NCBI RefSeq assembly: GCF_000238255.3 | Contig: NZ_CP011040.1 | Span: 620,001-684,000 of the forward strand | Length of the DNA stretch: 64,000 bases | Reading direction: 5' to 3' | Source: Pseudoalteromonas spongiae UST010723-006 | GTDB taxonomy: Bacteria > Pseudomonadota > Gammaproteobacteria > Enterobacterales > Alteromonadaceae | Part shown: positions 48,777-64,000 of the stretch, one piece after another | Position numbering within the stretch: the first letter of the stretch is position 1 | How the letters are laid out: each line of letters starts with the position of its first letter | Notes under the pieces: model-generated | Database searches by the model: none | Told to the model about the DNA's origin: nothing | Seen by the model: the letters and a program-made list of their open reading frames with translations, nothing else | Position numbers and translations under genes: made by a program

Positions 48777-49411
48777 ATGGTTTCTACTTCAATAGGCCAG
48801 TTAAAGCGCGCTTTTACGTTCTCGCCATTTTTTTTAGGCGGGGTAAAGCGGGCAATTTTAACAATACGTTTTATTTCTTTTTTAAAGCTGGGAAATGGAT
48901 TCTCTTTAATATCAATTAGCGTCACTTTGCCTTGTTCGTTGATTAATATATCAAGCACAATGTCAAAACGCTTTACGCCGCTGCGTCGTATCTTTTTGGG
49001 TACGTTGAATTTGAGATTCGCAAGTGATCGTGGTAAGGAATCTAAGTCACTCAAACCAAATGCCTGCCAATCAACATCTAATGAGTCGCTCCAGTTGATG
49101 TCATCTACCTGAAAAGTGATATCAATTGGCTGTTGTGTATAGGTTACCTCTGGTTTTACTAAACTCATGGTGATTTGTGGGCCCTCACCACTTGCGCTAA
49201 TAGCAATTTGCGGAGTGTCTACGTGTGGCTGCGTCATTGGTGGCGGAGGAGGAGGGGGCGGCGGTAAACTCACGGTCTCAATATTGCGCACTGTTAGCGG
49301 TTTTTGCACACCTGTAGTCAAAAAACGCGAAAGCATCACAAGGGAAAGTGCTGATGCAAGAATTGCAAAAGCAATCAGTAAGGCAATTGAATGCGAAGTT
49401 ACTTTCTTCAT
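48773..49411 (-). CDS. TonB energy transducer (TonB2 type)
   Basis: A 212-residue inner-membrane protein. A single N-terminal transmembrane anchor (about residues 9-28) is followed by a short Pro-rich run (SLPPPPPPPPPMTQP) and a TonB C-terminal domain (LKFNVPKKIRRSGVKRFDIV and KIARFTPPKKNGENVKARF). The spanner is shorter than in E. coli TonB, as in TonB2-type systems of Vibrio. It overlaps exbD upstream by 4 bases (ATGA) and the TPR gene downstream by 4. It transmits proton-motive energy from ExbB/ExbD to outer-membrane receptors. Confidence 0.9.
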   Translation of the reverse strand: MKKVTSHSIALLIAFAILASALSLVMLSRFLTTGVQKPLTVRNIETVSLPPPPPPPPPMTQPHVDTPQIAISASGEGPQITMSLVKPEVTYTQQPIDITFQVDDINWSDSLDVDWQAFGLSDLDSLPRSLANLKFNVPKKIRRSGVKRFDIVLDILINEQGKVTLIDIKENPFPSFKKEIKRIVKIARFTPPKKNGENVKARFNWPIEVETI

Positions 49412-49809
49412 TGTGTGGCAATGCTCACATTGCTCGCGCCCGCGAGTTTACTTTCGTCAATTACTTGTACCAAAAGCTCGGTTGGTACCAGTTTATCAGC
49501 CTGAATAACCACCGCGCGTTGCTTGTCTTTTGTCAGTTGGCTAACAATCGAACGTACGCCGGCAACGCCAATATTGCTGCCATCGTAAACCACTTCTTTG
49601 GCGTTAGTAATGGCAATCATAATTAGATTGCGCTCTAGTTTTTGTTGTGATAATGCCTGAGGCTTATCAACCTCTACCCCCGTTTCTTTTACAAAAACCG
49701 TGGTAACAATAAAGAAAATAAGCAATATAAACACCACGTCGATTAATGGCGATAAATCGATGTGTTGCTGTTGCTCGTTTTGTAATCGTTGTTTTAGGTT
49801 AGCTTGCAT
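49408..49809 (-). CDS. exbD: ExbD-type biopolymer transport protein
   Basis: A 133-residue inner-membrane protein with one transmembrane helix, DLSPLIDVVFILLIFFIV, containing the essential proton-path Asp24, followed by a periplasmic alpha/beta domain ending in SNVSIATQ. Length is normal for ExbD. It overlaps the upstream short exbB by 11 bases. Part of the ExbB-ExbD motor of the TonB2-type operon. Confidence 0.93.
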   Translation of the reverse strand: MQANLKQRLQNEQQQHIDLSPLIDVVFILLIFFIVTTVFVKETGVEVDKPQALSQQKLERNLIMIAITNAKEVVYDGSNIGVAGVRSIVSQLTKDKQRAVVIQADKLVPTELLVQVIDESKLAGASNVSIATQ

Positions 49810-50179
49810 GGCGCTCTACTTCATTTAAGCTGCGATTAACTAGGCTGTAGAGGATCCAAGCAGGCACGGCCAATAACAAACCAAGTTGTGTTGTAAATAG
49901 GGCGTCTGATATGCCGGCGGTTAAACTGTTGCCCAAGGCCATTGTTTCGCCATAAGACATGGCAACAAAGGCATCTAATAATCCCATAATTGTGCCAAGC
50001 AAACCTAATAGCGGTAGCGCGCAAATACATAAATTGAGCGATTGTTGCCAAAAGCCAAGGCCACAGCAACACACCTGTTTGCGGGCAATAAAGGCATACA
50101 CCAAACGGTAATAAACAAACAGCGCGAGCGCTAAAATGGCGATTACAATAGGATGAGATAATTCGTTTAATGTGATCAT
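49799..50179 (-). CDS. exbB: Short ExbB-type motor protein
   Basis: A 126-residue MotA/TolQ/ExbB-family inner-membrane protein, much shorter than E. coli ExbB (244 aa) but typical of the second ExbB in TtpC-type operons. The signature LCICALPLLGLLGTIMGLLD, the conserved Glu region (NSLTAGISDALFTTQLGLLL) and the final helix AVPAWILYSLVNRSL are present. It follows the long ExbB with a 4-base overlap. It forms the proton channel with ExbD. Confidence 0.92.
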   Translation of the reverse strand: MITLNELSHPIVIAILALALFVYYRLVYAFIARKQVCCCGLGFWQQSLNLCICALPLLGLLGTIMGLLDAFVAMSYGETMALGNSLTAGISDALFTTQLGLLLAVPAWILYSLVNRSLNEVERHAS

Positions 50180-51456
50180 GCCGCGCCTTTGTGTAATTCT
50201 ATGTTTTGGTTAAAGTTAAATTGGCTAAGTGAAATGGCACACTGTTCAAGTTGATGATAGTAGCTTTTAACTTTTCGTGACAAAAATGCATGACAAAGTA
50301 ACGCCGGAATAGCCACAACAAGGCCGAGCTCGGTTGTTACGAGCGCCTCTGAGATGCCACCTGATACTGCAGCCGGGTCGCCTGCGCCAAACAAGGTCAT
50401 TAATTTAAAGGTTTCAATCATGCCGCTTACTGTTCCCAAAAGGCCAAGCAGTGGCGCAACTGCAGCTGTTACAGCAATTGCACCAAGTAAGTTATCGAGT
50501 TGCTTCTTTTGTTCGTTTAAGGCATTGAACAGTGAATCATCTCTTAATTGGCCAATTGGAGTGCGTTGACAAATTTCGACCAGTTCGGTTTGCCAGCTGC
50601 CCAGTTTCAATGTGCTGTGCTCACCATTAAGGTTAGATAAGCGCTCTGTTACTGCGGGCACGATTTTGTCGAGCCTTGCAAGCTGAACCAGTTTGTAAAT
50701 TGAAATAAGTAACGCGAAAAGTGCAAACAGTAATATCGGTGCGACCCAAACACCGCCTTTGCTGATGTGCGAAATAATGTTCTCTTGCTGTTTTAAGCTC
50801 ATGGTAGCGCGGCCGTTGCTTGGGTCGATTGGCAATAACGCACTGCCGGTGTCTTTTAGCTGCGTTAGTGCATCATGCGCATTTTCTAGTAATACAGCGA
50901 CTTCATTGTGCTGGCTAGATTTTTCAATTAAACCCGCAGCATTATCGCTTTTAAAATAAGTGAATGGGCCAATATCAATTAGCTCAGCTTGATGTGTATT
51001 TCCATCGCTAAATACAACCTCACTTTGATAAAACAGCCCCTGCCTTTGTTGTGTTTCGTCAAAGCTTTTTTTTGCAAGTGCTAATAACTCTGTTAAGTCG
51101 TCACTTTTTGGCGTGATTTCGCTTTCACTTAAATAACGAGTTAACAGGTGTGTTTGATATTGCGACTGTTGCTGCCATTGTTTTAAGCGATTTTCAACGT
51201 CTTCTATCGACAGTGCTGCTTCATCTTGTGCGCGTATTACGCCTTCAGTTTCTTTACGCAGTAACAGAACAGCGTTTTCAGCGTTAAGCAATTCGCGGCT
51301 GAGATTACTATTCTCACGTGCCAATTGTTTTTCGGTTTTGTTGAGTGCAGCTTGCGCACTGTTAATATCGTGTTGTAACGATTGAATTACGTCGCTTGCT
51401 TTAAGCGGGGCTACAACACAAAGCAACGCAGTGACTAACCATAAATATAGTTTCAT
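50176..51456 (-). CDS. Long ExbB/TtpC-like protein
   Basis: A 426-residue protein with an exported N-terminal coiled-coil part (about residues 20-220, QSLQHDINSAQAALNKTEKQ) followed by an ExbB core (WVAPILLFALFALLISIYK, APLLGLLGTVSGMIETFKLM, SEALVTTELGLVVAIPALL). This fused form is TtpC of Vibrio TonB2 systems, required there for TonB2-dependent uptake. The symbol ttpC is not used because function is only inferred. It overlaps DUF3450 upstream by 4 bases. Confidence 0.9.
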   Translation of the reverse strand: MKLYLWLVTALLCVVAPLKASDVIQSLQHDINSAQAALNKTEKQLARENSNLSRELLNAENAVLLLRKETEGVIRAQDEAALSIEDVENRLKQWQQQSQYQTHLLTRYLSESEITPKSDDLTELLALAKKSFDETQQRQGLFYQSEVVFSDGNTHQAELIDIGPFTYFKSDNAAGLIEKSSQHNEVAVLLENAHDALTQLKDTGSALLPIDPSNGRATMSLKQQENIISHISKGGVWVAPILLFALFALLISIYKLVQLARLDKIVPAVTERLSNLNGEHSTLKLGSWQTELVEICQRTPIGQLRDDSLFNALNEQKKQLDNLLGAIAVTAAVAPLLGLLGTVSGMIETFKLMTLFGAGDPAAVSGGISEALVTTELGLVVAIPALLCHAFLSRKVKSYYHQLEQCAISLSQFNFNQNIELHKGAA

Positions 51457-52241
51457 TGTGTTTGCTCCAAGGTTACCGGTAGAGCGATAAAATCGGCTTC
51501 TTGTCGTTGCTGTAACATGGCCTTTGCTTTTACAAAGTCGGCATAAGGCATTTCATTATTGAGTTGCCATTGCCACTGATTGTTTGCAACAAACCCAATG
51601 CCAGTCTGTGTACCATCTGGCGTACTCATATAGGCAAGCTTTTCACCGATGTAGATTTGTTCAAGTAACACGTGTTTACCTGTTGCTAGTGTGATTTTGG
51701 ACTTTTCAAAACTTATGCGCTGACTAAACGCTTGGCGTTTGCTTTGTAGTAGTAACAAAACTTCAAGGGTTTCACTGTCAGTCGATGCATCGGTAATTTG
51801 TAAAAGCGATTGCCGCCATGTGTTTGCTAAAGGAGGGGGCAGGCTTGTTATCTGGCTGTGAGCGTAACTAATTGATTGTTCGAGCCACAATGCAAGCTCG
51901 TGTTGCTCAGATTCAAGTTTAGATTGCGCGCGTAAAATCTGATTACGGCGCTCACTGACTTCATCATTGTGCTGCTTGCTTTGTGCGAGTTTTTCTTTTA
52001 ATCGCTGTTTTTCAATATTTAATAAACTTAATCGTTGCTCAAGCAAAGGTTTTTGGCTTTGCCAATCGGCTATCAGTTGATTACGTTGTTTATGTAAGTT
52101 AAGCCATTTATCGACCAGTAATTGATAGTCTTTTACGGTACTTGCGTGGCTTTCAAACAGACAGGCGGTAGCAATTAATAGCGCCAAGTTTATTTTTTTT
52201 GGAGTCTTCATAGTGACAAAAAAATTCGCCAGTAGTGACAT
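51453..52241 (-). CDS. DUF3450 family protein, first gene of TonB2-type operon
   Basis: A 262-residue exported protein with an N-terminal signal segment (KINLALLIATACLFESHA) and a long coiled coil (LEQRLSLLNIEKQRLKEKLA, RNQILRAQSKLESEQHELAL), then a globular part. DUF3450 proteins precede ExbB/TtpC in TonB2 operons of Vibrio and Shewanella but have no proven biochemical role. The start ATG 52241 lies 43 bases downstream of a perfect Fur-type palindrome. It heads a six-gene, end-overlapping operon. Confidence 0.85.
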   Translation of the reverse strand: MSLLANFFVTMKTPKKINLALLIATACLFESHASTVKDYQLLVDKWLNLHKQRNQLIADWQSQKPLLEQRLSLLNIEKQRLKEKLAQSKQHNDEVSERRNQILRAQSKLESEQHELALWLEQSISYAHSQITSLPPPLANTWRQSLLQITDASTDSETLEVLLLLQSKRQAFSQRISFEKSKITLATGKHVLLEQIYIGEKLAYMSTPDGTQTGIGFVANNQWQWQLNNEMPYADFVKAKAMLQQRQEADFIALPVTLEQTQ

Positions 52242-52283
52242 AGCGCCACACCAGCGTTAGTTATAAATTAAATATATTGCAAA

Positions 52284-52298
52284 TGATAACTGTTATCA
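52284..52298 (-). promoter_or_regulatory. Fur-type operator before the TonB2-type operon
   Basis: TGATAAC-T-GTTATCA is a perfect 7-1-7 palindrome at 52284-52298, matching the Fur consensus TGATAAT-n-ATTATCA except for one symmetric pair. It is 43 bases before the DUF3450 start, and about 145 bases from the divergent methyltransferase start, so it may control both. Iron control is inferred from the match, not shown. Confidence 0.85.
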
Positions 52299-52443
52299 TT
52301 ACTATCTACAACTAAAATAAACTCACTATTAAACTTAAATTCTTGAATCGTGCATTGTCTTTGCAACTAAATGAGCAATGCTGCGAAAACTACACACCTA
52401 ACAAGTGTTTCCTTAACTTGTTAAGAAAAAGGAGTTTCAACAG

Positions 52444-53150: not shown

Positions 53151-55082
53151 CTAGTAAAGATCCACTCTAATGCGTTTAGCTTCTATAAGTGATTGGTAGA
53201 CGTGCTCTTCTAAAATTGATTTAAGACAGCTGATAACTGATTCGCCAAACCCTTTTTGTTTTCCGCATAAATAAATCATTGCGTTATCGTCACGCATCCA
53301 CTTTTTAATACTGCTAGCATGTTGCTCTAGCTGTTCAGTAATATAACCACCACCGTCGCGTGACCAGGCTGGGGTAAAGTGAGTCAGTGATTTATCGCTA
53401 AGCATGGCATTAATTTCATCTTTAAAATAAAAATCCGTACTCTTTGATTGCTCACCGAAGAATAGCCAAGCGGGTACACGCTGCTCATTGACTGACATAC
53501 CTTTTAGTAAGCTGATTAGTGGCGCAATACCCGTGCCAGCACCGATTAAAATGGTGGGGCAGTGGCGTTTAGGTAGATGGAAATTTGCATGATGCCTAAT
53601 ACGAGCGCTTATCAGTTCATTTTCACTCAGATCACACAGGTAATTTGAGGCAAGTCCCGGTTTACCTAAGTCATCGAAGTGCCTACGCACAAAAATCTCT
53701 AATTGAGATTCGTGTGGTGCGCTTGCAATTGAATAAACCCGAGGTGGTAACGGCGTTAACACATCGACAAGTTGTTGAGCTGATGTAGCGCTTTCACCAA
53801 GCCAATTCGATTGCCTTACTGCTTCAAATAGTGGCATTTCAGTATTTTGAAAAATGACCTGTTGCTGACAATCAAAGCCTTTTTCACGTAGCATTTGTTG
53901 ACACTTAATCGCGTCGTATTTGGGTATTACTTCCAAAAGATCGCCAGCTTGATAAGTGAGACACTCGTTTTTAAAGGTTATTCTATGTGCAGCGCGCTTA
54001 GGCTTTTGTGAGTTCACTAAAATGTTACTGTGGGTACTAAGAAGGTGATAGTTATCAGTCAATGAAACGGTCGATTGCTCCTTGCCAATAAAGTGGCTAA
54101 TTTGTTGCCACCAATTGCTAATGGCATCTTTATCACCGCGGTCCACTTCAATAACATCGGTAATTTGCTGTGCACCTTTTGATGATAATAAGTGTGCAAG
54201 CTGATGGCCAAACGCACAAAAATGCTGATAGGTACGATCGCCAAGCGCCAAAATTGAGAAATTCACCTTGCTAGTTAGCGTTTGCGTTTGCTTCATTTTA
54301 TTAAGAAATGTCACCGCGGTTTCTGGCGGTGCACCTTCGCCATAGGTGCTAGCGATTAAAAGCACTTGGCGATACTGGCCTAAACAATCAGGTGTGAGAG
54401 AAGACAAACAACGCAGATCAAAGGTATTCGGTAGCTGTTTATGAAAGCGCTCTGCAATCGACATCGCAGTGCCTGATTGACTGGCGAATGCAAGCAAGGT
54501 ACTCGCGGTTTGACTACGGGCATTCAGTAAACTGTAACAGCAGGCATAAAACACAAAACAGATACTCAATATACCTATTGATGTATACAGTGATAAGCCG
54601 TTGTTTACGTCTAGGTTAAACAAGGTAAAGCAGCCACTAAATAGGACACATGCAACAAAACAAAGGGCAAATAGCGATAGTTTTTGCTGCCGTTTTTGCT
54701 TCCAAAGAACCAATGAAATTACCACAATTACAGCACAAAACAATAAGCCGATTTGTTCTAATAGGTGGGCGATGGCGAGTTGTCTGCTAGACAGATAATT
54801 GATTATCTCAAACTCTTGGTTAAGCACAATTAAGCGAGTTTCATCGAAAAACTCAAGTTGTTTAATGGTAAAACTATCGAATACTTTTTCGCCATTACTG
54901 TGTTGCGTAACCCCCTCAATTGAAAAGCGTGTTTGCGTATGGCTTGAATTTAACGAGAACATCCACGCCCATAAAACAAAGCCCAATAGAAAAAGCAATT
55001 TTATAAATAAATTCAATAAATACGATAAGTTAGTGTGCTGAGAATTAATAAGGTTTTTGCCATATTTGACTAGCTGAAACAT
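53151..55082 (-). CDS. Membrane-anchored flavodoxin/NADPH-reductase (diflavin) protein
   Basis: A 643-residue protein. Four membrane segments (about 24-44, 102-126, 135-154, 168-186) are followed by a flavodoxin domain (about 196-332: FASQSGTAMSI, ASTYGEGAPPETA, LALGDRTYQHFCAFG) and an FNR-like reductase (about 345-643: RVYSIASAP for FAD, LIGAGTGIAPLI for NADPH, C-terminal RVDLY). The soluble half is like sulfite-reductase flavoprotein CysJ. Related proteins often carry a PepSY_TM core; here a separate PepSY gene lies divergently at 55194, as if the two were split. ATG 55082 is preferred because the Fur-type box overlaps the alternative ATG 55118. Proposed role: passing NADPH electrons to envelope partners. 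Confidence 0.87.
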   Translation of the reverse strand: MFQLVKYGKNLINSQHTNLSYLLNLFIKLLFLLGFVLWAWMFSLNSSHTQTRFSIEGVTQHSNGEKVFDSFTIKQLEFFDETRLIVLNQEFEIINYLSSRQLAIAHLLEQIGLLFCAVIVVISLVLWKQKRQQKLSLFALCFVACVLFSGCFTLFNLDVNNGLSLYTSIGILSICFVFYACCYSLLNARSQTASTLLAFASQSGTAMSIAERFHKQLPNTFDLRCLSSLTPDCLGQYRQVLLIASTYGEGAPPETAVTFLNKMKQTQTLTSKVNFSILALGDRTYQHFCAFGHQLAHLLSSKGAQQITDVIEVDRGDKDAISNWWQQISHFIGKEQSTVSLTDNYHLLSTHSNILVNSQKPKRAAHRITFKNECLTYQAGDLLEVIPKYDAIKCQQMLREKGFDCQQQVIFQNTEMPLFEAVRQSNWLGESATSAQQLVDVLTPLPPRVYSIASAPHESQLEIFVRRHFDDLGKPGLASNYLCDLSENELISARIRHHANFHLPKRHCPTILIGAGTGIAPLISLLKGMSVNEQRVPAWLFFGEQSKSTDFYFKDEINAMLSDKSLTHFTPAWSRDGGGYITEQLEQHASSIKKWMRDDNAMIYLCGKQKGFGESVISCLKSILEEHVYQSLIEAKRIRVDLY

Positions 55083-55102
55083 GTTTAATTTATAAATCGA
55101 AA

Positions 55103-55117
55103 TGAAAATAATTATCA
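55103..55117. promoter_or_regulatory. Fur-type operator between diflavin reductase and PepSY operon
   Basis: On the minus strand the site reads TGATAAT-T-ATTTTCA, differing from the Fur consensus TGATAAT-n-ATTATCA at one position. It lies 20 bases before the reductase start at 55082 and 77 bases before the PepSY gene start at 55194, so one box could repress both divergent units. This would place the whole 53.1-63.7 kb block under iron control. Confidence 0.83.
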
Positions 55118-55193
55118 TATGCTATTGCAAAGTGTCAGCGAACGCTAGTAGAATTTGCCCGACAAATAAGTAGACCGAAGATTTTTTAGTGGT

Positions 55194-55823
55194 ATGGCAA
55201 GGTCAAATAGCCAAATGCAATTCGATGTTAGTTATGTATCTCGCATTATGCGCAAAATACACATTTTCAGTGCAATGCCGGTATTGGTGTTGATGGTGTT
55301 TTTTGCAATTACGGGCATTTACCTAAACCACCCCGATTGGAAAGGTGGTGACGTTGAAAAACAACAGCAAACCATTGCGCTGCCAAAAAGTCTTACCGAT
55401 TTACCCGACTGGCCAACTCATTATGCGAGCCACAGTTTAACCTTGCTGCATTGGCTTGATGTTGAACATGGCGTATCGGGTGTTGACTTCGAAATTGATT
55501 GGGATGAATTAGATAGTCTGGTCATTTTGAATTTATCTGGCCCAAATGGTAGCACGCTAATTGAGGCATTTATTGAAGAAGGGCAAGCACATGTTGATAC
55601 ACGACGCTTATCCCTTATCGATATGCTGAACAATGTTCATCGGGCAAAGCACGTATCGGGCTTATGGAGAGTGCTTTCAGATATTAGCGCGATTTGTATG
55701 GTGCTGTTTTCGATCAGCGGTTTTTGGCTGGTTTTGGTTAACCGCATGGAGCGCAAAAACGCCAACATCGCTTTGCTACTCGGTAGTAGCTTGTTTGTCT
55801 TTATCATTACTTTAATGCATTAG
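55194..55823 (+). CDS. PepSY-associated membrane protein
   Basis: A 209-residue inner-membrane protein resembling the PepSY_TM family. Helices lie at about 26-44 (FSAMPVLVLMVFFAITGIYL), about 160-182 and about 187-208; the long segment between is periplasmic and PepSY-like. Several His residues sit at membrane edges (IMRKIHIFS, IYLNHPDW, NNVHRAKHVSG), positions used for heme in related transmembrane electron carriers. It opens the ten-gene operon 11 bases before DUF2271. Proposed electron carrier across the membrane for the diflavin reductase; heme binding is inference. Confidence 0.78.
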   Translation: MARSNSQMQFDVSYVSRIMRKIHIFSAMPVLVLMVFFAITGIYLNHPDWKGGDVEKQQQTIALPKSLTDLPDWPTHYASHSLTLLHWLDVEHGVSGVDFEIDWDELDSLVILNLSGPNGSTLIEAFIEEGQAHVDTRRLSLIDMLNNVHRAKHVSGLWRVLSDISAICMVLFSISGFWLVLVNRMERKNANIALLLGSSLFVFIITLMH

Positions 55824-55834
55824 GAGACGTATCG

Positions 55835-56308
55835 ATGCTTAAGCAGTTAATTGCAGTGACTTCCCTTTTGTTTGCATCTGTCGCTGCGCATGCAAATACC
55901 TTAACAGTTGAATTTGAATTACCGAGTTTTACCACCGGCGACTACCACAAACCTTACGTTGCAATTTGGGCTGAAAGTAAAGCGCAAAATCAAACGTTGT
56001 TGCTTTGGCACTTAACTAAACGAAAAGAAGATAAATGGCTGGTGGATATTCGTCGTTGGTGGCGCAAACAAGGGCGTTATGGCGACATACCAGATGGTGT
56101 GACTGGCGCGACAAAAGGCCCTGGAAAATACAGCGAAACACTTGATGTTGGCGATTTAAGCCAATTCAAACTGTTTATCGAAGTGGTACGTGAAGACGGC
56201 GGTCGTTCACTGTTAAAAACGCCAATCGACTTCTCAGATAACCAAAAACGCTATCACTTAGACGCTGATAAAGAAATTGGCGCTGTAACAATTATCAAAG
56301 GAAAATAA
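55835..56308 (+). CDS. DUF2271 periplasmic protein
   Basis: A 157-residue exported protein: a 20-residue signal peptide ending in AHA, then the DUF2271 domain (YHKPYVAIWAES, RRWWRK at 73-78, DGVTGATKGPGKYSETLDVG at 87-106). GVTGATKGPG recalls the flavinylation motif of ApbE substrates, but its final Thr is missing. The same domain is fused to ApbE at the operon's far end, where the motif is further decayed. DUF2271 is often encoded beside PepSY and ApbE genes. ATG 55835 follows GGAG. Confidence 0.87.
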   Translation: MLKQLIAVTSLLFASVAAHANTLTVEFELPSFTTGDYHKPYVAIWAESKAQNQTLLLWHLTKRKEDKWLVDIRRWWRKQGRYGDIPDGVTGATKGPGKYSETLDVGDLSQFKLFIEVVREDGGRSLLKTPIDFSDNQKRYHLDADKEIGAVTIIKGK

Positions 56309-56310
56309 TA

Positions 56311-57132
56311 ATGAAATCCAAATTTGTAAACGTAACCGCAGGGCTAACACTTGCTTTGGCATCAGGTTTAGCAAGTGCCCATGATATTTATATTTGGCCA
56401 AGTTACTTTACGGTGAATAGCGAAAAGGCGGTTGACGTGCCAGTTCAAATCACCGCGTCACACACCACATACAGACCTGATTTTGCAATGCCAAGTGAAG
56501 GCGTTAAAGTATTCGCTACCGACGGCAAACAGGTTCGTCGTATTGGCAGCTTTTATCAAGGTGCGCGTTTTTCAACATTCGATTTAGGTGTTGAGGGCGA
56601 AGGCACATATGCACTTGAATATCATCGCGGTCCAAACTATCACTCGCGCTACAAAATTGGTAAGCGAGACACTGAAAAACATATCCGCGGCAATAAATCA
56701 CAGGCAAAGGCTAATGCACCAAAAGGCGCACGAGATTTAGAAACGGCATCATACACAACCATTGCAATGTCGTACGTGACGAATAAAGCACCCAGCAACG
56801 ATGTACTGAAAGCAAAAAATAAAGGTTTTGAAGTATTACCAATCACCCATCCGTCAGATTACGTGACCGGTGAAGATTTAACGGTTAGCTTGTTGTTTAA
56901 CGGCAAACCAGTGGCAAATCAAGATGTGCTGATTGAGCTGGAAGCCCCTCAATACAGCGAAAATCCAAAAGCCCTTGAACTGAAAAGTGATAAAGATGGC
57001 CTTGTGAGCTTCAATTTTGCAAAAGGCGGGCGCTACATGCTAAAGGTTAATCATAAAATCGATAGTACCGATGCTGAAGCGGATGTAGAAATTACCCGCG
57101 TGTACTACGCATTTGAAGTGATTTTTGAGTAA
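56311..57132 (+). CDS. DUF4198 periplasmic metal-associated protein with predicted N-terminal His
   Basis: A 273-residue exported protein of the DUF4198 family, whose relatives accompany nickel/cobalt and other metal importers. Predicted cleavage after Ala23 would leave His24 (HDIYIWP) as the mature N-terminus, as in copper-histidine-brace proteins and some CopC/NikK-type proteins. A further His-Thr-Thr pair (ASHTTYRP) could complete a site. The two beta-sandwich halves (YFTVNSEKAVDVPVQI, PSDYVTGEDLTVSLLFNG) are family-typical. It follows DUF2271 by 2 bases. A direct metal-binding role is inference. Confidence 0.85.
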   Translation: MKSKFVNVTAGLTLALASGLASAHDIYIWPSYFTVNSEKAVDVPVQITASHTTYRPDFAMPSEGVKVFATDGKQVRRIGSFYQGARFSTFDLGVEGEGTYALEYHRGPNYHSRYKIGKRDTEKHIRGNKSQAKANAPKGARDLETASYTTIAMSYVTNKAPSNDVLKAKNKGFEVLPITHPSDYVTGEDLTVSLLFNGKPVANQDVLIELEAPQYSENPKALELKSDKDGLVSFNFAKGGRYMLKVNHKIDSTDAEADVEITRVYYAFEVIFE

Positions 57133-57138
57133 ATCACG

Positions 57139-57459
57139 ATGAAAAAGCTGATTTCCCCTGTGATTGGCATGTTGTCTTTAGCGCTATGCGCTAAAGCACA
57201 TGCCCATTTTCCAACGCTAAACTGCCATGTCAGCAATACAGATGCAAAACTGCTTAGCTGCACCGCAGGTTATTCTGATGCCAGTCTAGCAGGTGAAGTA
57301 ATACTCAAAGTGTACTCATACGATGAAGCGTTACTGCGTGAAGTAAAAACCGAGAGTGATGGCAGCGTGTCGTTTAGCAAGCCAAACGGCGAGTTTTATA
57401 TTGTGTTTGACGCCGGTCATGAAAGCCCTGCCGAGTTTGATTATGCCGAACTTGAATAA
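57139..57459 (+). CDS. Small exported protein with predicted N-terminal His
   Basis: A 106-residue exported protein I cannot assign to a named family. The signal peptide (MKKLISPVIGMLSLALC) is followed by AKAHAHFPTLNC, so cleavage after either Ala20 or Ala22 leaves His as the new N-terminus. Two Cys (LNCHVSN and LLSCTAGY) could form a disulfide. The rest looks like a short beta-sandwich (GEVILKVYSYDEALL). It follows DUF4198 by 6 bases and overlaps the start of the DUF6162-like gene. A metal-binding role is suggested only by context and the N-terminal His. Confidence 0.72.
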   Translation: MKKLISPVIGMLSLALCAKAHAHFPTLNCHVSNTDAKLLSCTAGYSDASLAGEVILKVYSYDEALLREVKTESDGSVSFSKPNGEFYIVFDAGHESPAEFDYAELE

Positions 57460-57961
57460 ACGCGCGTTTTATCAAGCGGGCTTTGTGGAGATTGTGCCGC
57501 AGCAAGATGGGCGTAAAGAAAACGCCTATTTTGTCGTGGCTATTGTGTCAATACTTGCGCTTGCAGCATTACTTCTTGTGTTCACGGTAGGCGAGCGAAG
57601 TAAACGTGTTGCACTGCCGGCAAATATTGTAAGCCTTAGCACCCAATTACAAAATGCCGCAGAAGAAATCGCTATTTTATCCAGTGTAGGCGAATTGGCT
57701 ATGAGGCCTACATTAGACGAGCTGATCACCTACCAGATTGACCCTTTTTCCGAGCGTGAATTTGAATCACCGAAATCAGGGTGTTTTATACATCAACACG
57801 ATAACTACCAATTACGCCTTAACTTTCAGGATTCGGGCTGGCAAGTGATGTGGCGCGAACAAACTCATAGCGCGACAGCGCACGCACATCATGACGATAA
57901 CGCGCTTTGCAATAACAATAATAAATGGCAACACGTAAGTAGCCAGACTAACCAAAATTAG
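57443..57961 (+). CDS. DUF6162-like membrane protein with His-rich tail
   Basis: A 172-residue inner-membrane protein resembling the DUF6162 family often found beside ZnuA-type genes. One helix lies at about 28-48 (FVVAIVSILALAALLLVFTV); the periplasmic part ends in a His-rich tail (QTHSATAHAHHDDN). The longest frame begins at 57356 in a shadow, but ATG 57443 overlaps the stop of the previous gene by 17 bases and gives the expected start, so translational coupling is likely. Its role may be metal trapping for the importer; not proven. Confidence 0.7.
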   Translation: MPNLNKRAFYQAGFVEIVPQQDGRKENAYFVVAIVSILALAALLLVFTVGERSKRVALPANIVSLSTQLQNAAEEIAILSSVGELAMRPTLDELITYQIDPFSEREFESPKSGCFIHQHDNYQLRLNFQDSGWQVMWREQTHSATAHAHHDDNALCNNNNKWQHVSSQTNQN

Positions 57962-57969
57962 AGGTTCGC

Positions 57970-58866
57970 TTGTTTTATAAAATTATGTTTAGTGTGATGG
58001 CGTTTTGCATCACGTTATCGAACGCATATGCACAGCACGGTAAGCTGCATGTCGGTACGACCTTACACCCTTATTATGCCTATGTGGCAAATATTGTGGG
58101 TAACCAAGGTGAGGTAATTCCGCTAATTGAAACGGGATTTAATCCACACAATTACAGTTTAAGCCCTGCCGATATTGGCCGTTTAAAAAACATGGACGCA
58201 CTGGTCGTTAACGGTATTGGTCATGATGATTTTGCACTCGATGGTTTTAATCGCATAAAACCGCAAGGCGTTACACTGATAAAAGCCAACGACCAAGTGC
58301 CGCTGCTGCGCAAAAACCATAAGGTGAATCCACATACCTTTGTTTCTATCGATGCGGCAATTCGCCAAGTTTATGCCATTGCAAAATCTCTTGGTCAATT
58401 GGCGCCTGAGCACGCTAAGTATTTTAGTAAAAACGCTTTTTTATATGCCAAAAAATTGCGAGCTTTAAAAAAACCAGTGCAAGATATTTTAATCAATCAT
58501 GATTTATCGAATGTACGAATAGCGAGCACCCACAACGCGTATGGTTATTTATTGCAAGAGTTTGGCTTAACCGTTTCAGCGGTTGTTGAGCCCGCGCACG
58601 GGGTCTCACCAAGTGCGTCGCAGCTACAACAAACGATTAATGAAATTAAAAAAGCCGACATAGATGTGCTGTTTACAGAACTTAATATGGCAAACAGCTA
58701 TGTTGATGTAATTGAAAAAGCGACCGGCATTAAAGTGTATCACTTTTCGCATATGACCCATGGTCAGTACAGCCAAGACTTGGTTGAACGCGAAATGAAA
58801 CACAACCTAACTATGCTCGCCAAAGCGTTGACATTTGCTGCATCAAAATCAGGTAACACGCTATGA
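57970..58866 (+). CDS. ZnuA/TroA-like metal-binding protein with complete ligand set
   Basis: A 298-residue periplasmic cluster A-I binding protein of an ABC metal importer. The ligand positions are filled: His60 (NPHNYSLSPADI), His122 (NPHTFVSID), His188 (STHNAYGYL) and Glu237 (FTELN). His at the third position is the zinc-type pattern of ZnuA/AdcA; manganese- and iron-type proteins have Glu there. The His-rich loop of ZnuA is absent, but a His-rich tail is on the neighbouring DUF6162-like protein. Start is TTG 57970 after AGAGG. Overlaps the ATPase gene downstream by 4 bases. Confidence 0.9.
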   Translation: MFYKIMFSVMAFCITLSNAYAQHGKLHVGTTLHPYYAYVANIVGNQGEVIPLIETGFNPHNYSLSPADIGRLKNMDALVVNGIGHDDFALDGFNRIKPQGVTLIKANDQVPLLRKNHKVNPHTFVSIDAAIRQVYAIAKSLGQLAPEHAKYFSKNAFLYAKKLRALKKPVQDILINHDLSNVRIASTHNAYGYLLQEFGLTVSAVVEPAHGVSPSASQLQQTINEIKKADIDVLFTELNMANSYVDVIEKATGIKVYHFSHMTHGQYSQDLVEREMKHNLTMLAKALTFAASKSGNTL

Positions 58867-59576
58867 CAATTCATGCTCCTATCGTATGTGTTAGTGACTT
58901 AAGTGTCAGCATTAACAACAACCTGCTGTTAAATGACGTTAACTTGTCGGTACCTGCGGGAATTTGGCTAGGCGTGGTTGGGCCAAATGGCGGTGGTAAG
59001 TCAACATTGATTAAAGCCCTCATGGGGCAAGTGCCACACCGCGGACAAATCGCGTTAGATTGGCCGGAGCAAAGTGGCAGGCGAATTGGTTATTTACCAC
59101 AAATTGCGGTTATTGAGCCCTCTTTACCGATAACCGTAAGCGATTACCTCACTATGGTATGCGATACCCGCCCAGTTTGGTTTCGGCATAAGCAAAAGCA
59201 AGCAATACGAAATGCTATGACGCGTTTGCAAATTGAATCCTTTAATAACAAACGCCTTGGTACATTATCGGCTGGCGAAAGACAACGCGTTTTACTTTGC
59301 GCTGCGTTAATTAATCAACCGGATATTCTGGTGCTAGATGAACCACTTGCCGGTGTAGACAAAGAAGGCCATGCACTAATTCTCAATGTGTTATCAGAAT
59401 TTCACCAAGCGGGTGGCAGCGTGATTATGGTTGAACACCACTGGCAAGTAGTGGAGCTGTATTGTCAGTTTGTTGCGGTAATTGATGGGCAACTGGTTGA
59501 CTATGGTCCAATTGAACACGTATTTGGCCGCTTAAAGCCGAATGTCGCACCATTTGAGTTAGCAACATCAGCGTAG
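58863..59576 (+). CDS. Metal ABC transporter ATPase (ZnuC-like)
   Basis: A 237-residue cytoplasmic ATPase. Walker A GPNGGGKST is at 40-48, the signature is LSAGERQRV (LSAGE in place of the usual LSGGQ), Walker B ILVLDEPLAGVD and the H-loop VEHHW. It overlaps the binding-protein gene by 4 bases and precedes the permease by 7. It powers uptake of the metal held by the ZnuA-like protein. Confidence 0.93.
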   Translation: MTIHAPIVCVSDLSVSINNNLLLNDVNLSVPAGIWLGVVGPNGGGKSTLIKALMGQVPHRGQIALDWPEQSGRRIGYLPQIAVIEPSLPITVSDYLTMVCDTRPVWFRHKQKQAIRNAMTRLQIESFNNKRLGTLSAGERQRVLLCAALINQPDILVLDEPLAGVDKEGHALILNVLSEFHQAGGSVIMVEHHWQVVELYCQFVAVIDGQLVDYGPIEHVFGRLKPNVAPFELATSA

Positions 59577-59583
59577 GAACATT

Positions 59584-60474
59584 ATGTTGGACCTAGTACA
59601 TACATTCTTTTCAAATCTAGTGAATATTGGTCTGTTGCCAGAAATGTTCAGCTATGGTTTTTTGGTTAATGCCTTTTTAGCGTCTTTGCTAATTGGCCCT
59701 TTGTTGGGAGCATTAGGCACCTTAGTAGTGGTGAAACGCTTAGCCTTTTTATCAGAAGCAGTTGGTCACTCAGCACTCACAGGCGTATCCATCGGTATTC
59801 TACTTGGCGAGCCAATTACCGCACCTTGGATCAGCTTATTTGCGTTTTCATTATTGTTTGCCTTGTCGTTGCAGTGGGTGCGAGGGCGCACGACCGTGCC
59901 TTATGACGCATTAATTGGCGTCTTTCTGGCGTTTGCCTTGGCAATGGGGGCAGCGCTTTTAATGTTGGTTGCACAACAAGTAAACGCCCATTTAGTAGAG
60001 CAAGTGTTATTTGGTTCGGTACTCACCGCGAACGAACAAGACTTACTTATTTTAGTAGTGATGTTTGTCATTATTGCGGTGCTTGCATGGCGTTTTTCAA
60101 ATCAAGCATTCTTAACGGCAATAGCGCCTGAAATTGCAAAGAGCCAGCGCATTAACACTAAGTTGCATGATTATGGCTTTGTTGTGCTTATTGCCTTGAT
60201 GACAGTCGCTGCCGTGAAAATTATCGGTGCAATTTTAGTTGGTGCATTGTTGCTTATTCCTGCGGCAAGTGCGCGATTATTAGCCCATAACTTACGCAGC
60301 ATGTTGCTATGGTCAGTAATGATTGCAACAACCAGCGCATTAATTGGTGTGTTGCTGCCAATGTATATGCAATGGGCTGTTACAACTGGGCCCGCAATTA
60401 TTTTAACCGCCTGTTGTTGGTTTGTGTTTGCCATTAGCGTGCACAGCGTAAAAGGAGTAAGCACCCGTGCGTAA
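59584..60474 (+). CDS. Metal ABC transporter permease (ZnuB-like)
   Basis: A 296-residue inner-membrane permease with about eight helices. Family marks are LLIGPLLGALGTLVVVKRLA, FLSEAVGHSALTGVSIGILL (the conserved EAA-like coupling loop region) and GAILVGALLLIPAASARLLA. It begins 7 bases after the ATPase gene and its last codons overlap the next gene by 8 bases. It is the channel of the importer. Confidence 0.93.
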   Translation: MLDLVHTFFSNLVNIGLLPEMFSYGFLVNAFLASLLIGPLLGALGTLVVVKRLAFLSEAVGHSALTGVSIGILLGEPITAPWISLFAFSLLFALSLQWVRGRTTVPYDALIGVFLAFALAMGAALLMLVAQQVNAHLVEQVLFGSVLTANEQDLLILVVMFVIIAVLAWRFSNQAFLTAIAPEIAKSQRINTKLHDYGFVVLIALMTVAAVKIIGAILVGALLLIPAASARLLAHNLRSMLLWSVMIATTSALIGVLLPMYMQWAVTTGPAIILTACCWFVFAISVHSVKGVSTRA

Positions 60475-61267
60475 TCTTATATTAGCCATGTTGTTAACCT
60501 TAATGCCTTTGACTGTAGGTGCTTCAGCGGCAAGCGAAAGTAAGCTTTTGAAAATTGTCACTGTGAGTCCAATAAGCCATAGCTTAGTGACAGCAATGGT
60601 TGAAAATACGCCTATCCAAGTGACTTATTTACCGCCAAAGCGTTTACCTGTAAGTCGCATCCCAAGCTGGATTGAGAAAAACAAAACGCGCAAATTTGAC
60701 CAGTTTGATGCGTATGTATCAATGCGCTCAGTAAAGCCACAATTTGATTTATATGCCAGTGTGCGCCAAAGCAATATTCGTGTAGTTGAAATTGACATTG
60801 CTGAGGCCCTGTTGCCAAAGGGCGAGAAAGTCGTGTTAATAAACCAACAAGAGTATTTTTGGCTTAATAATAACAACTTACTACTTATGCTAGGCATTTT
60901 GAAGCGTGATTTAGTGAGCCTTTGGCCTCAATTCTCTGTGATGTTCAATGCAAATCAACAAGCGCTATCGTCGCAAATTCGCAGTATTAATCGCGCAAGT
61001 AATGAGCTGTTAATTAAGCATGACGTTGCATTTATGGTGGCAAATGCGAAACAGGCGCCGTTTGTTAATGGCTTTGCGACAGATTTAGCGACCCAGCAAG
61101 ACGCACAAGCCATAGGCCTAAATTACTTATTAGTCGACAAAGTTAAGAAAACGCCATCGCCCAACACCTGGCATATTGATGATTTTAGTCGATTTAACAA
61201 AGCGCCATTAATTGCGCGCTTAAAAAACAATCATAACGCATTATCCCAAACACTTTATCAATTATAA
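60467..61267 (+). CDS. Degenerate TroA-like binding-protein paralogue lacking metal ligands
   Basis: A 266-residue exported protein that keeps the TroA-like fold signs but not the site. LLKIVTVSPISHSLVTAMVE corresponds to strand 1; where the functional paralogue has NPHNY it has PKRLPVSRI, and where family members have DPHxWL it has EYFWLN. No His stands at the third or fourth positions. Start is GTG 60467, overlapping the permease gene by 8 bases. It may be a partner or regulator of the importer rather than a metal carrier. I know no named family for it. Confidence 0.78.
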   Translation: MRNLILAMLLTLMPLTVGASAASESKLLKIVTVSPISHSLVTAMVENTPIQVTYLPPKRLPVSRIPSWIEKNKTRKFDQFDAYVSMRSVKPQFDLYASVRQSNIRVVEIDIAEALLPKGEKVVLINQQEYFWLNNNNLLLMLGILKRDLVSLWPQFSVMFNANQQALSSQIRSINRASNELLIKHDVAFMVANAKQAPFVNGFATDLATQQDAQAIGLNYLLVDKVKKTPSPNTWHIDDFSRFNKAPLIARLKNNHNALSQTLYQL

Positions 61268-61279
61268 AAGAGGTTGAAA

Positions 61280-62215
61280 ATGAAAGGTCCAATTAAAACC
61301 TTATCGGCCATTGCTGTGGTTGCAGCAATTAATAGTTTTTCAGTTGTAGCAGCAGAAAAATCCCATTTTAGCTATAGCTGGATTGATACTTGGGATACAG
61401 ATAACAACCAACAAGTAACGATTGAAGAGTTTTTTAAAGCACGAAAAACACGCTTTGACCTTGCCGATGAAAATAAAGACGGTCTAGTGAACTTAGATGA
61501 ATACCGTAACGAATACGAAAATCGTCTCGACCAAAAAATTGCACAAGAGCGTAAGCAAAGCGTTAAGCAAACAAAAATGCGCTTTAACGCAATGGATAAA
61601 AACGACGACGACATAATGTCGAAAGACGAATACATGGATGTTGCAAAGCGCGGTTTTGATTTTTTTGATACGGATAAAAACGGCATGATCACCGATGAAG
61701 ATCCGAAACCTGAATATAAACCGCGTAAAAAAACTGAGCAAAAAAGCGAAGAAGAAATTAAAAAACAACAACGCGAGCGCAAAATAGCCAGTGCGAAACG
61801 TGTTGTAAAAATGCCAACAACTCATAATAAAAAGGGCATGGTTGCGATTTACGACGCTAACGGCAATGGCAGTGTGTCTTGGCAAGAATATATGGCAGTA
61901 CGTGAAGAAATGTTCGCAAGAACAGATGAAAACGGTGACGGCCAACTGGTGTTTGACGAATATTTAGCAGAGTTTGAAAACCGACTTGATACGCAAATTG
62001 CAAAAGCCCGTGAAAAACGCGTAGCACGTACCGATAAACGCTTTGCAATTCTTGATGTAGACAGCAATGGTATGACATTTGAGGAGTTTCAATTGTCAGG
62101 TGTGCGCAGTTTTGTACGTTATGACAAAAACAAAGACGGCAAAGTTGAGTTTGATGAAAAGGCTAACACGCAAGTAGCTAACCGCGATGCCAAAAAACAA
62201 GACAGTAAACTGTAA
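61280..62215 (+). CDS. Eight-EF-hand exported calcium-binding protein
   Basis: A 311-residue protein with a 25-residue signal peptide (cleavage near VVAA) and eight EF-hand loops. In this numbering they begin near residues 39, 63, 106, 130, 192, 216, 259 and 282; DENKDGLVNLDE and DENGDGQLVFDE are perfect 12-residue loops. Loop 7 (DVDSNGMTFEE) is one residue short and probably weak. The two halves of four are joined by a Lys/Glu-rich linker (about 148-172). ATG 61280 with AAGAGG upstream is preferred over TTG 61274. An EF-hand protein in a metal-uptake operon is unusual. Confidence 0.9.
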   Translation: MKGPIKTLSAIAVVAAINSFSVVAAEKSHFSYSWIDTWDTDNNQQVTIEEFFKARKTRFDLADENKDGLVNLDEYRNEYENRLDQKIAQERKQSVKQTKMRFNAMDKNDDDIMSKDEYMDVAKRGFDFFDTDKNGMITDEDPKPEYKPRKKTEQKSEEEIKKQQRERKIASAKRVVKMPTTHNKKGMVAIYDANGNGSVSWQEYMAVREEMFARTDENGDGQLVFDEYLAEFENRLDTQIAKAREKRVARTDKRFAILDVDSNGMTFEEFQLSGVRSFVRYDKNKDGKVEFDEKANTQVANRDAKKQDSKL

Positions 62216-62244
62216 CGGTTGCGGGTCAAAAATTTCAAACATTC

Positions 62245-62270
62245 AGGGGGAGTAATCCCCCTTTAAATTT
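62245..62270 (+). terminator. Terminator-like hairpin between EF-hand and ApbE genes
   Basis: Perfect 7-bp stem AGGGGGA/TCCCCCT with a GTAA loop (62245-62262), followed by TTAAATTT. It lies in the only long gap (66 bases) of the operon, so ApbE expression may be reduced relative to upstream genes. The T-run is weak. Confidence 0.55.
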
Positions 62271-62281
62271 AAAAAAGGTAA

Positions 62282-63667
62282 ATGATGCGTTTTGTGGTTT
62301 TAATCGCAGCACTTGTGTGCGGATTTAACGCAGTGGCAAAACAGTACGCCACAACGGCCTATTTAGGCACATCTGTTCAGTTTACTATAGAGAATGTATC
62401 AGCGACTGAGCAAGACCAAGCGTTTGAGCTAGTTAAACAAGAGTTAACACGCTTGAACACGATTTTATCGCGCTATAACAAAAGTAGTTCCCTTTCGATT
62501 TTAAATCGTGAGAAACAACTAAAAAATGCACCTGTTGAGCTTATCGACGTACTCAAGTTATGTCAGCAATGGCAAGTAAGTACTGCTAACCACTTTAGTT
62601 GTCGACTAGGCAGTATTTTACCAATTTGGCAACAGGCTGAACAAACGCAAACTATGCCATCGCGCATTGAGGTAAGACGCGAGGCCCGTTCGTTACGCGA
62701 TAAAACAATCTTAATTAATGGGTCGCACATCACCCTTGATGAGGAACTAACGCTTGATGTTAATGGTATCGCGAAAGGGTTTATCATAGATAAAGTGTAT
62801 GACTTACTTGTTGCCCGTTATAGTGAAAGCCGCTTTAAAATTGATATTGGCGGCGATGGTCGTCATTACGGCGCGTGGCCAATCGCATTTACAAACCCAA
62901 ATGTTAAGAACGCAACGCAGGTGATGTTAACTAATTTGGAAAATCACGCATATGCAGCAAGTGGCCTTGCGTTTCGTCATTTTCAAATTAAGCACAATAC
63001 GTTTAGCCATATTTTTGCCCCCCGCGATGGCTGGCCAATTACAAAGCCTATCGGTGCTGCGGTAATTGCAAAAACAACTGCAAATGCCGATGCCATTGCA
63101 ACCGCGTTAACCACAATGAATGGTGTAAATGCCATTGATTGGCTTAATAAGCATGACGTAGCAGGCGTATTATTTTTGCCTGACGGGCGCGTTGTTTATT
63201 CAAAAACATGGCAACAACGTGATGTATCAACACACAAGGCAAAGCTGACATTTGATTACACGATACCTGAATTTGATATTGCTGATTACCGTAAACCTTA
63301 TGTTGCGATATGGCTATCAGATACCAAAGGGAATCCAATAAAACAAATGGCTATTCTTGGTGATAGTGAAAGGTGGTGGCAGCAAAGCAGGCGTTGGTGG
63401 CGAAAAGTAGGGCGCAAGGAAAATAGTGTTTTTCCACATCTTGCCCATGCAACGCGAAAGCCGGGGCAACACAGTATTAGTTGGTTTGGCGAGGACGATT
63501 TAGGCCAAATTGTCACTGAAAATGAATTGATATTGCATATTGAAGTTAGCCGAGAGCATGGTGATACCAGTTATCAAAAGTTGCCATTTAATCTCACGAA
63601 ACAAGCCACAATAACTAAAGATGGCAAAGGGGAAATAGGGCAACTTAGCCTGACGATTACGCCGTAA
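62282..63667 (+). CDS. FAD:protein FMN transferase (ApbE) fused to DUF2271
   Basis: A 461-residue exported protein. After a signal peptide (about 1-18, AVA), residues about 20-310 are ApbE: DVNGIAKGF (159-167), KIDIGGDGRHYG (186-197), SHIFAPRDGWP (242-252) and the Mg-site ADAIATAL (269-276). ApbE attaches FMN to Thr/Ser in extracytoplasmic proteins. Residues about 320-458 are a second DUF2271 domain, with RRWWRK (370-375) and a decayed AHATRKPG where the free protein has TGATKGPG. No classical FMN_bind substrate is encoded nearby. AAGG precedes ATG 62282. Confidence 0.9.
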   Translation: MMRFVVLIAALVCGFNAVAKQYATTAYLGTSVQFTIENVSATEQDQAFELVKQELTRLNTILSRYNKSSSLSILNREKQLKNAPVELIDVLKLCQQWQVSTANHFSCRLGSILPIWQQAEQTQTMPSRIEVRREARSLRDKTILINGSHITLDEELTLDVNGIAKGFIIDKVYDLLVARYSESRFKIDIGGDGRHYGAWPIAFTNPNVKNATQVMLTNLENHAYAASGLAFRHFQIKHNTFSHIFAPRDGWPITKPIGAAVIAKTTANADAIATALTTMNGVNAIDWLNKHDVAGVLFLPDGRVVYSKTWQQRDVSTHKAKLTFDYTIPEFDIADYRKPYVAIWLSDTKGNPIKQMAILGDSERWWQQSRRWWRKVGRKENSVFPHLAHATRKPGQHSISWFGEDDLGQIVTENELILHIEVSREHGDTSYQKLPFNLTKQATITKDGKGEIGQLSLTITP

Positions 63668-64000
63668 AACTCAAGAATCGAAGAAATAGGCAATTCTGCT
63701 TAACACGCTCTAGCGTAAATTACATAAAAACGGCATACGGATTTGCCGCTTACTTTCTCAAAATACGCGCTTTACTTATATGCTGTTCTGCTCACGATAA
63801 TTAAATTCAATGTGCAAACTTGGTTTTGACGAAAAATCACCAATAAAATTTATATTATTTTTAATATATCAATCATTTATTTGTTTTCCTGTAGTGGATT
63901 TAGCGCAGTTAACTGTATTGCGAAAAAAAGTATAATTTACCTTGCATTAAAAACGCGAATCATTATCATTACGTCCCGAGTGCGATGACTATGAATTTTA
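63668..64000. other. Intergenic region at window end with possible Fur half-site
   Basis: About 330 bases without a gene. Near the end, 63954-63968 has one good Fur half (ATTATCA, 63962-63968) and a poor left half, followed by ATG codons at 63984 and 63990 that may open the next gene, cut by the window edge. Nothing else recognisable. Confidence 0.4.

Follow-up and report, generated by a model that had tools for sequence, protein, structure and literature searches.

Positions 53151 to 63667 of a 64,000-nucleotide stretch of the Pseudoalteromonas spongiae UST010723-006 genome (the window, part of a 1.6-Mb contig in a genome of 4.75 Mb on two contigs) carry a gene set that we consider probably to combine the importer half of an Fpv-type iron-release system with a PepSY/DUF2271/DUF4198 module in the place of FpvG and FpvH and with a divergent diflavin reductase, and whose predicted role is periplasmic reduction of ferric iron followed by its import as Fe(II). 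The case is built on homology and gene order, on conserved residues, on the swapping of reductase types along a tree of the importer and on Fur-like sites, and from these we infer substrate, metal and electron path. The locus is a real and conserved operon, likely iron-controlled, and a new combination of two known halves. The diflavin reductase gene lies on the minus strand, and eleven plus-strand genes (55194-63667) are packed behind an intergenic box, neighbours being 2-11 bases apart or overlapping by 4-17, except for the 66 bases ahead of apbE. This gene set, with its strands, gaps and Fur-type box between divergent units, had been delineated in an earlier, sequence-only reading and is found in the sequence as described there, and the domain names that it gave (diflavin reductase, PepSY, DUF2271, DUF4198, ABC, EF-hand, ApbE) agree with Pfam. 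The features are as follows, with J, K, C, D, E and F denoting the genes named after their fpv counterparts.

53151..55082, minus strand: membrane-anchored diflavin (flavodoxin plus flavin adenine dinucleotide (FAD)/NADPH) reductase, predicted electron entry (Pfam PF00258, PF00175; CysJ/P450-reductase homology)
55103..55117, no strand assigned: Fur-like box between the divergent units (sequence match)
55194..55823, plus strand: PepSY_TM_like_2 membrane protein, predicted heme electron conduit (PF16357, 4.6e-31)
55835..56308, plus strand: DUF2271 protein, predicted covalent flavin carrier (PF10029, 8.5e-30; TGAT motif)
56311..57132, plus strand: DUF4198 protein, predicted mature N-terminal His, H24 (PF10670, 1.5e-41)
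57139..57459, plus strand: J, FpvJ homologue with Ig-like domain (9.5e-21 to Azospirillum J; structure model with predicted local distance difference test score (pLDDT) of 94)
57443..57961, plus strand: K, FpvK homologue, DUF6162-related, with N-terminal hydrophobic segment (PF19659 weak, 0.0057; iterated profiles)
57970..58866, plus strand: C, FpvC-like metal-binding protein of the ZnuA family (1e-77 to FpvC 6r3z)
58863..59576, plus strand: D, FpvD-like ATP-binding cassette (ABC) ATPase (PF00005; 1.4e-50 to Azospirillum D)
59584..60474, plus strand: E, FpvE-like ABC-3 permease (PF00950, 6.6e-52; 1.2e-79 to Azospirillum E)
60467..61267, plus strand: F, FpvF-like second binding protein, predicted siderophore binder (5e-15 to Azospirillum F; structure model)
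61274..62215, plus strand: secreted EF-hand repeat protein, local accessory (PF00036/PF13499)
62245..62262, plus strand: terminator-like hairpin ahead of apbE (sequence; folding energy not unusual, z -0.68)
62282..63667, plus strand: ApbE flavin transferase fused to a second, C-terminal DUF2271 (PF02424, PF10029)

On sequence comparison, genes J-K-C-D-E-F are homologous to the importer half of fpvGHJKCDEF and keep its gene order. In that operon FpvG reduces, FpvC binds iron, FpvF binds pyoverdine and FpvDE is the predicted importer (PMC6954188). The C protein is 48% identical to Pseudomonas aeruginosa FpvC (1e-77; 6r3z, 6r44, 6r5s, 6ru4), the next proteins following at 2e-18, and its H60, H122, H188 and E237 are kept in 100-101 of 101 sequences. 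With an annotated operon of fpv order on an Azospirillum plasmid as the reference for the importer genes, the window proteins J, C, D, E and F match their counterparts at 9.5e-21, 8e-82, 1.4e-50, 1.2e-79 and 5e-15, respectively, while for K the profiles built from the window side and from the Azospirillum/Pseudomonas-like side share 100 of the sequences found. Azospirillum K itself is a DUF6162 protein (2.4e-37) and Azospirillum F a ZnuA-family protein (6.9e-16). No family match was obtained for window F in domain searches; its structure model (pLDDT 95.6) has FpvC and YfeA as top Foldseek matches (E 4.9e-9), the C and F profiles align with each other, and His occupies any one column of the F alignment in at most 26 of 99 sequences. 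Because it pairs an FpvC-like fold with no conserved His column, we read F as a binding protein that lacks a metal site, and from its sequence it is predicted to bind the siderophore. The sequence-only reading had called it a ligand-less binding protein, which holds as regards the missing histidines and is refined by the FpvC fold and the FpvF position.

Compared with P. aeruginosa fpvGHJKCDEF, the window system thus shares the six homologues and their order, the metal ligands of C, the binding-protein fold of F and, by our reading, periplasmic reduction before import. It differs in having PepSY_TM_like_2, DUF2271 and DUF4198 instead of FpvG (PepSY_TM, four membrane segments) and FpvH, and in adding the diflavin reductase, the EF-hand protein and ApbE; a link to pyoverdine is not known. 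Neither FpvG (PF03929, about 380 residues) nor FpvH gave a profile match in L011, a close relative that carries the same operon, and we therefore do not class the window operon as a full Fpv system; in profile comparison PepSY_TM_like_2 is only distantly related to FpvG. The pyoverdine study treats the precise functions of FpvH, FpvJ and FpvK as open, and its available part names no physiological electron donor of FpvG (PMC6954188).

Relatives were collected by scanning a one-genome-per-species collection, the best 80 loci by identity of at least 520 being kept. J, K, C, D, E and F are all present in 80 of these 80 loci, and PepSY, DUF2271, DUF4198 and J-K-C-D-E-F run consecutively on one strand in 69, in 67 of them with all gaps below 150 bases, so that the grouping is not a matter of chance. 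The co-occurrence anticipated by the sequence-only reading therefore applies to nine core genes and does not extend to the EF-hand and apbE genes, which were detected in 3/80 loci and are local additions; the EF-hand protein, with seven to eight EF-hand loops, was detected only in operons from Pseudoalteromonas and Colwellia. The reductase module is exchanged on this fixed importer. PepSY_TM_like_2, DUF2271 and DUF4198 occur together in 72 of the 80 loci, an FpvG (PF03929)-FpvH fusion takes their place in five as one open reading frame (ORF) of 575-683 residues directly before J, and three hold neither in full (two Nitrincola loci without PepSY, one Marinobacterium locus with DUF4198 alone). 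In the first locus table, seven loci are without PepSY_TM_like_2 and DUF2271, six of them with an FpvG-type gene (five directly before J; in L010 after F on the opposite strand) and L045 with neither, while in Pseudomonas-like genomes, whose C shares 86-88% identity with P. aeruginosa FpvC, G and H are separate genes in the order G-H-J-K-C-D-E-F. A quick tree of the C protein has 94 rows, of which 75 are of the flavin type, 13 of the FpvG type and 6 of neither. In it the rows with fused FpvG-H group as a clade within a well-supported set that also contains the window. At least two changes are needed to explain the FpvG type, likewise with well-supported branches only, and five for all three labels together; by this tree, then, the importer has exchanged its reductase two or more times.

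Some of the relatives depart from these arrangements. The FpvG-FpvH fusion type is found, next to a TonB-dependent receptor, in L048 (Vibrio fluminensis) and L136 (Vibrio plasmid pTHAF190c_b), whereas other kept Vibrio loci are of the flavin type, a distribution that likely reflects horizontal transfer. In L024 and L029, F is directly followed by another FpvG-FpvH fusion gene, the second in the locus. The operon is missing from most of the genus. Its nearest named relative is that of Pseudoalteromonas sp. P1-9, with a C protein 97% identical, and C was found in 4 of the 295 genomes of a family sample (E 1e-20) and in 2 of the 369 of a class sample (E 1e-30), own genome counted in both.

Turning to the predicted electron path, the ORF of the diflavin reductase reaches 55118, and a second Met at 55082 corresponds to the start in L011. 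The protein probably starts at this second Met, which places the Fur-like box upstream of both units. The reductase was detected in 13 of the 80 loci, or in 18 loci once duplicate and additional ones are counted, and in all 18 it adjoins the PepSY gene, in two as a PepSY-reductase tandem after F; its presence needs one change on the C tree. Its N-terminal part is not conserved and varies from an apparently single hydrophobic segment (L013, L014) to several, for which reason we read it as an anchor. H23 and H149 of PepSY_TM_like_2 are invariant in 79 of 79 sequences, and by analogy with a heme-binding PepSY protein described in P. aeruginosa (PMC11334425) the two histidines may mark a heme path. 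The DUF2271 protein carries TGAT at 90-93, a form of the motif [S/T]GA[S/T], with T93 as predicted flavin acceptor; ApbE-dependent flavinylation at this motif is shown for one DUF2271 protein, from Amantichitinum ursilacus (Meheust et al. 2021, PMC8238504). The genome has two DUF2271 domains, both encoded here. In the one fused to ApbE the motif has degenerated to AHAT (AHAT or ARPS in three related loci) while the transferase half scores well, and this copy perhaps serves for docking. The Vibrionaceae DUF2271 proteins inspected (L052-L090) carry TSAT in place of [S/T]GA[S/T].

The window has a PF16357 protein clustered with ApbE and its substrate family; PepSY-like flavinylation systems are recognized by a PF03929 or PF16357 protein clustered with ApbE or its substrates. 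Among 3220 such PepSY clusters, 2833 have DUF2271 and 1500 have DUF4198 (PMC8238504), and the PepSY/DUF2271/DUF4198 module has already been proposed to reduce periplasmic iron. PepSY_TM_like_2, DUF2271 with TGAT, DUF4198, ApbE and Fur-like control are common to those systems and the window; the partners named for them are, in contrast, VIT1 and TonB receptors, and the main text as available does not contain the term 'ABC transporter' (PMC8238504). Likewise, the predicted Caulobacter operon CCNA_03155-03159, a target of Fur, combines a flavin-dependent reductase, PepSY, DUF2271 and DUF4198, and its mutants show fitness defects in the presence of EDTA, but the available part of that paper makes no mention of an Fpv-type importer (PMC12004947). 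In Alteromonas, DUF4198/DUF2271 pairs are enriched under iron limitation (PMC7190382). The union of an Fpv-type importer and the flavin module was not found in the literature searched, where the halves are described apart; papers in subscription journals or differently worded would escape such a search. The sequence-only reading had stated that the full set is not a described pathway; this stands for the union, with the importer half known as fpv and the reductase half as PepSY-like flavinylation.

J and DUF4198 share an N-terminal histidine. After predicted signal-peptide cleavage, mature J starts with His-x-Pro in 100 of 100 sequences (H23 in the window), a set that covers both reductase types and reductase-less rows; two Cys are invariant in 43 aligned J sequences, but not in Fusobacterium. 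Family matches of J are weak (bMG3, and NikL NF058648 at 1.1e-6, below cut-off). In DUF4198, the first His, H24, is kept in 82 of 83 sequences, H51 in 82 and H180 in 83. The structure of another DUF4198 protein has Ni held by the N-terminal His, and this protein binds Ni best (PMC12537917, the available main text of which does not mention iron, siderophore or Fpv). FpvJ complexes with FpvC, FpvF and FpvG in Pseudomonas (PMC6954188), and in a P. aeruginosa proteome under copper stress the pyoverdine-system proteins were unchanged except FpvJ, which was 10.3-fold up (PMC6444534). On the grounds of the invariant His-x-Pro, the Ni-DUF4198 structure and this copper response, we propose, by analogy, that FpvJ is a metal carrier.

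Both units are likely under iron control. The Fur-type box TGAAAATAATTATCA at 55103-55117 agrees with the consensus TGATAATNATTATCA at 13 of its 14 specified positions, and matches of 14/19 or better to the 19-mer Fur consensus occur at five places only in the window. The best upstream Fur-like match is at least 14/19 in 43 of the 80 loci versus 80 of 1600 random windows of the same loci, a comparison that overstates the difference because the loci are related.

Taken together, these data are consistent with the following scheme. Ferric chelates would enter the periplasm via TonB-dependent receptors. Electrons from NADPH would pass through FAD and flavin mononucleotide of the diflavin reductase to the PepSY heme protein (H23, H149), and from its heme to a flavin that would be linked to T93 of DUF2271 by ApbE, and thence to Fe(III). 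The freed Fe(II) would be handed by the N-terminal-His proteins DUF4198 and J to C (H60, H122, H188, E237) and enter through D2E2, with F holding the emptied chelator, and Fur would repress both units in iron plenty. The coupled metal reduction and import under iron control put forward in the sequence-only reading remains the best account, with the amendment that the zinc-type importer named there is most likely an iron importer.

Zinc is nevertheless the metal that annotation suggests, and one rival view is that of a ZnuABC/AztABC-type importer for zinc (or for manganese or nickel), beside which the redox genes would be bystanders. Pfam assigns C to ZnuA and E to ABC-3, no other ZnuA or ABC-3 protein was found in the genome, the public annotation is zinc ABC transporter, and the window shares with ZnuABC/AztABC a clustered metal-binding protein, ATPase and ABC-3 permease; in addition, FpvC crystals with Ni and Mn and the Ni-preferring DUF4198 relative would suit manganese or nickel. 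We regard this alternative as improbable: C matches FpvC at 1e-77 and zinc or manganese proteins at 2e-18 or weaker, falls below the NCBIfam zinc cut-offs (61.5 against 268 bits for ZnuA, 102.5 against 350 for AztC) and lies far from the zinc clades, the operon has two binding proteins, and the box between the units is Fur-like (only the Fur-like consensus was scored; Zur-type sites were not searched for). Moreover, a ZnuA-family protein of any kind occurs in 2 of the 60 genomes searched in the genus (own genome counted), and, 58 having none, most of the genus does without such a zinc importer. This count and the homology of the importer half to fpvJKCDEF make iron rather than zinc the most likely metal.

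The locus could also consist of two independent Fur-controlled modules side by side, namely an ABC importer of iron and a PepSY reductase that acts on something else, for instance copper. This would accord with the Caulobacter and Alteromonas modules, for which the available parts of the papers do not mention such an importer, with a PepSY_TM protein that supports heme-copper oxidases (PMC13038864) and with the 10-fold rise of FpvJ under copper stress. We give it little credence, as the nine genes are consecutive in 69/80 loci, with J-K-C-D-E-F in 80/80, and the flavin module occupies the place held by FpvG-FpvH in other versions. Nickel or cobalt uptake, with DUF4198 and J as NikL-like accessories of the ABC importer, is very improbable even with the NikL match of J and the Ni-DUF4198 structure, since no other Nik/ECF family is the best match in the operon, J is homologous to FpvJ, the partner of FpvC, FpvF and FpvG in Pseudomonas, and uptake of Ni and Co requires no reduction.

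Several observations weigh against the iron reduction and import that we favor. ApbE was detected in the operon in only 3 and the diflavin reductase in only 13 of the 80 loci. The strict motif [S/T]GA[S/T] is present in only 38 of 81 DUF2271 sequences, TSAT being found in 41 and TAAT in 2 (the acceptor Thr is kept in all 43), which makes flavinylation outside the window's clade uncertain. As Ni and Mn, besides Fe(II), are seen in crystals of FpvC and the DUF4198 relative binds Ni best, homology does not settle the identity of the metal. K is connected through iterated profiles only, 11 of the 80 loci are without an upstream Fur-like match above 12/19, and no receptor gene directly adjoins the operon in the window. 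The 80 loci, being the best by identity of at least 520, are a sample biased towards this type, and the C tree is a quick one, for which the program warns that some long-branch joins, including the Pseudomonas-type clade, may be false.

A more general proposal, which we advance tentatively, is that machines releasing siderophore iron in the periplasm are modular, with one conserved ferrous-iron importer, J-K-C-D-E-F, served by interchangeable reductases, that the window presents a whole path from NADPH to Fe(III), and that FpvJ and DUF4198 are N-terminal-His ferrous carriers to FpvC. If true, it would give FpvJ a function, the handing of Fe(II) to FpvC, and a concrete hypothesis of a metal site built on the mature N-terminal His. 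With the reductase swapped on a fixed importer, the two alternative modules would be expected to share one function, and the flavinylation modules of marine bacteria would be tied to a defined ferrous-iron importer.

Near the operon, and separated from it by one methyltransferase gene, lies a TonB2-type cluster on the minus strand (47433-52241; tetratricopeptide repeat protein, TonB, two ExbB including a long one, ExbD and DUF3450). DUF3450 and both ExbB are Pfam matches, the rest being assigned by homology among loci, with ExbD seen in L011. A separate Fur-like site belongs to this cluster (52279-52303). In 45 of 100 loci the stretch fetched includes ExbB- or TonB-like genes, and many Vibrio and Photobacterium loci have similar clusters in the vicinity of the operon. 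A nonribosomal peptide synthetase (NRPS)-independent siderophore (NIS) synthetase (IucA/IucC) was not found in the genome (NRPS genes were not searched for), which, judged from sequence, makes the use of foreign siderophores plausible. A further Fur-like site, at 63949-63973, lies just past apbE at the window edge, the gene it serves being outside the window. Finally, importer operons without a detected adjacent reductase were seen in L125, a Pseudomonas-like genome that also carries an fpv operon, in L134, another genome of the same order sample, and in L137, a Fusobacterium vincentii record with two copies of C.

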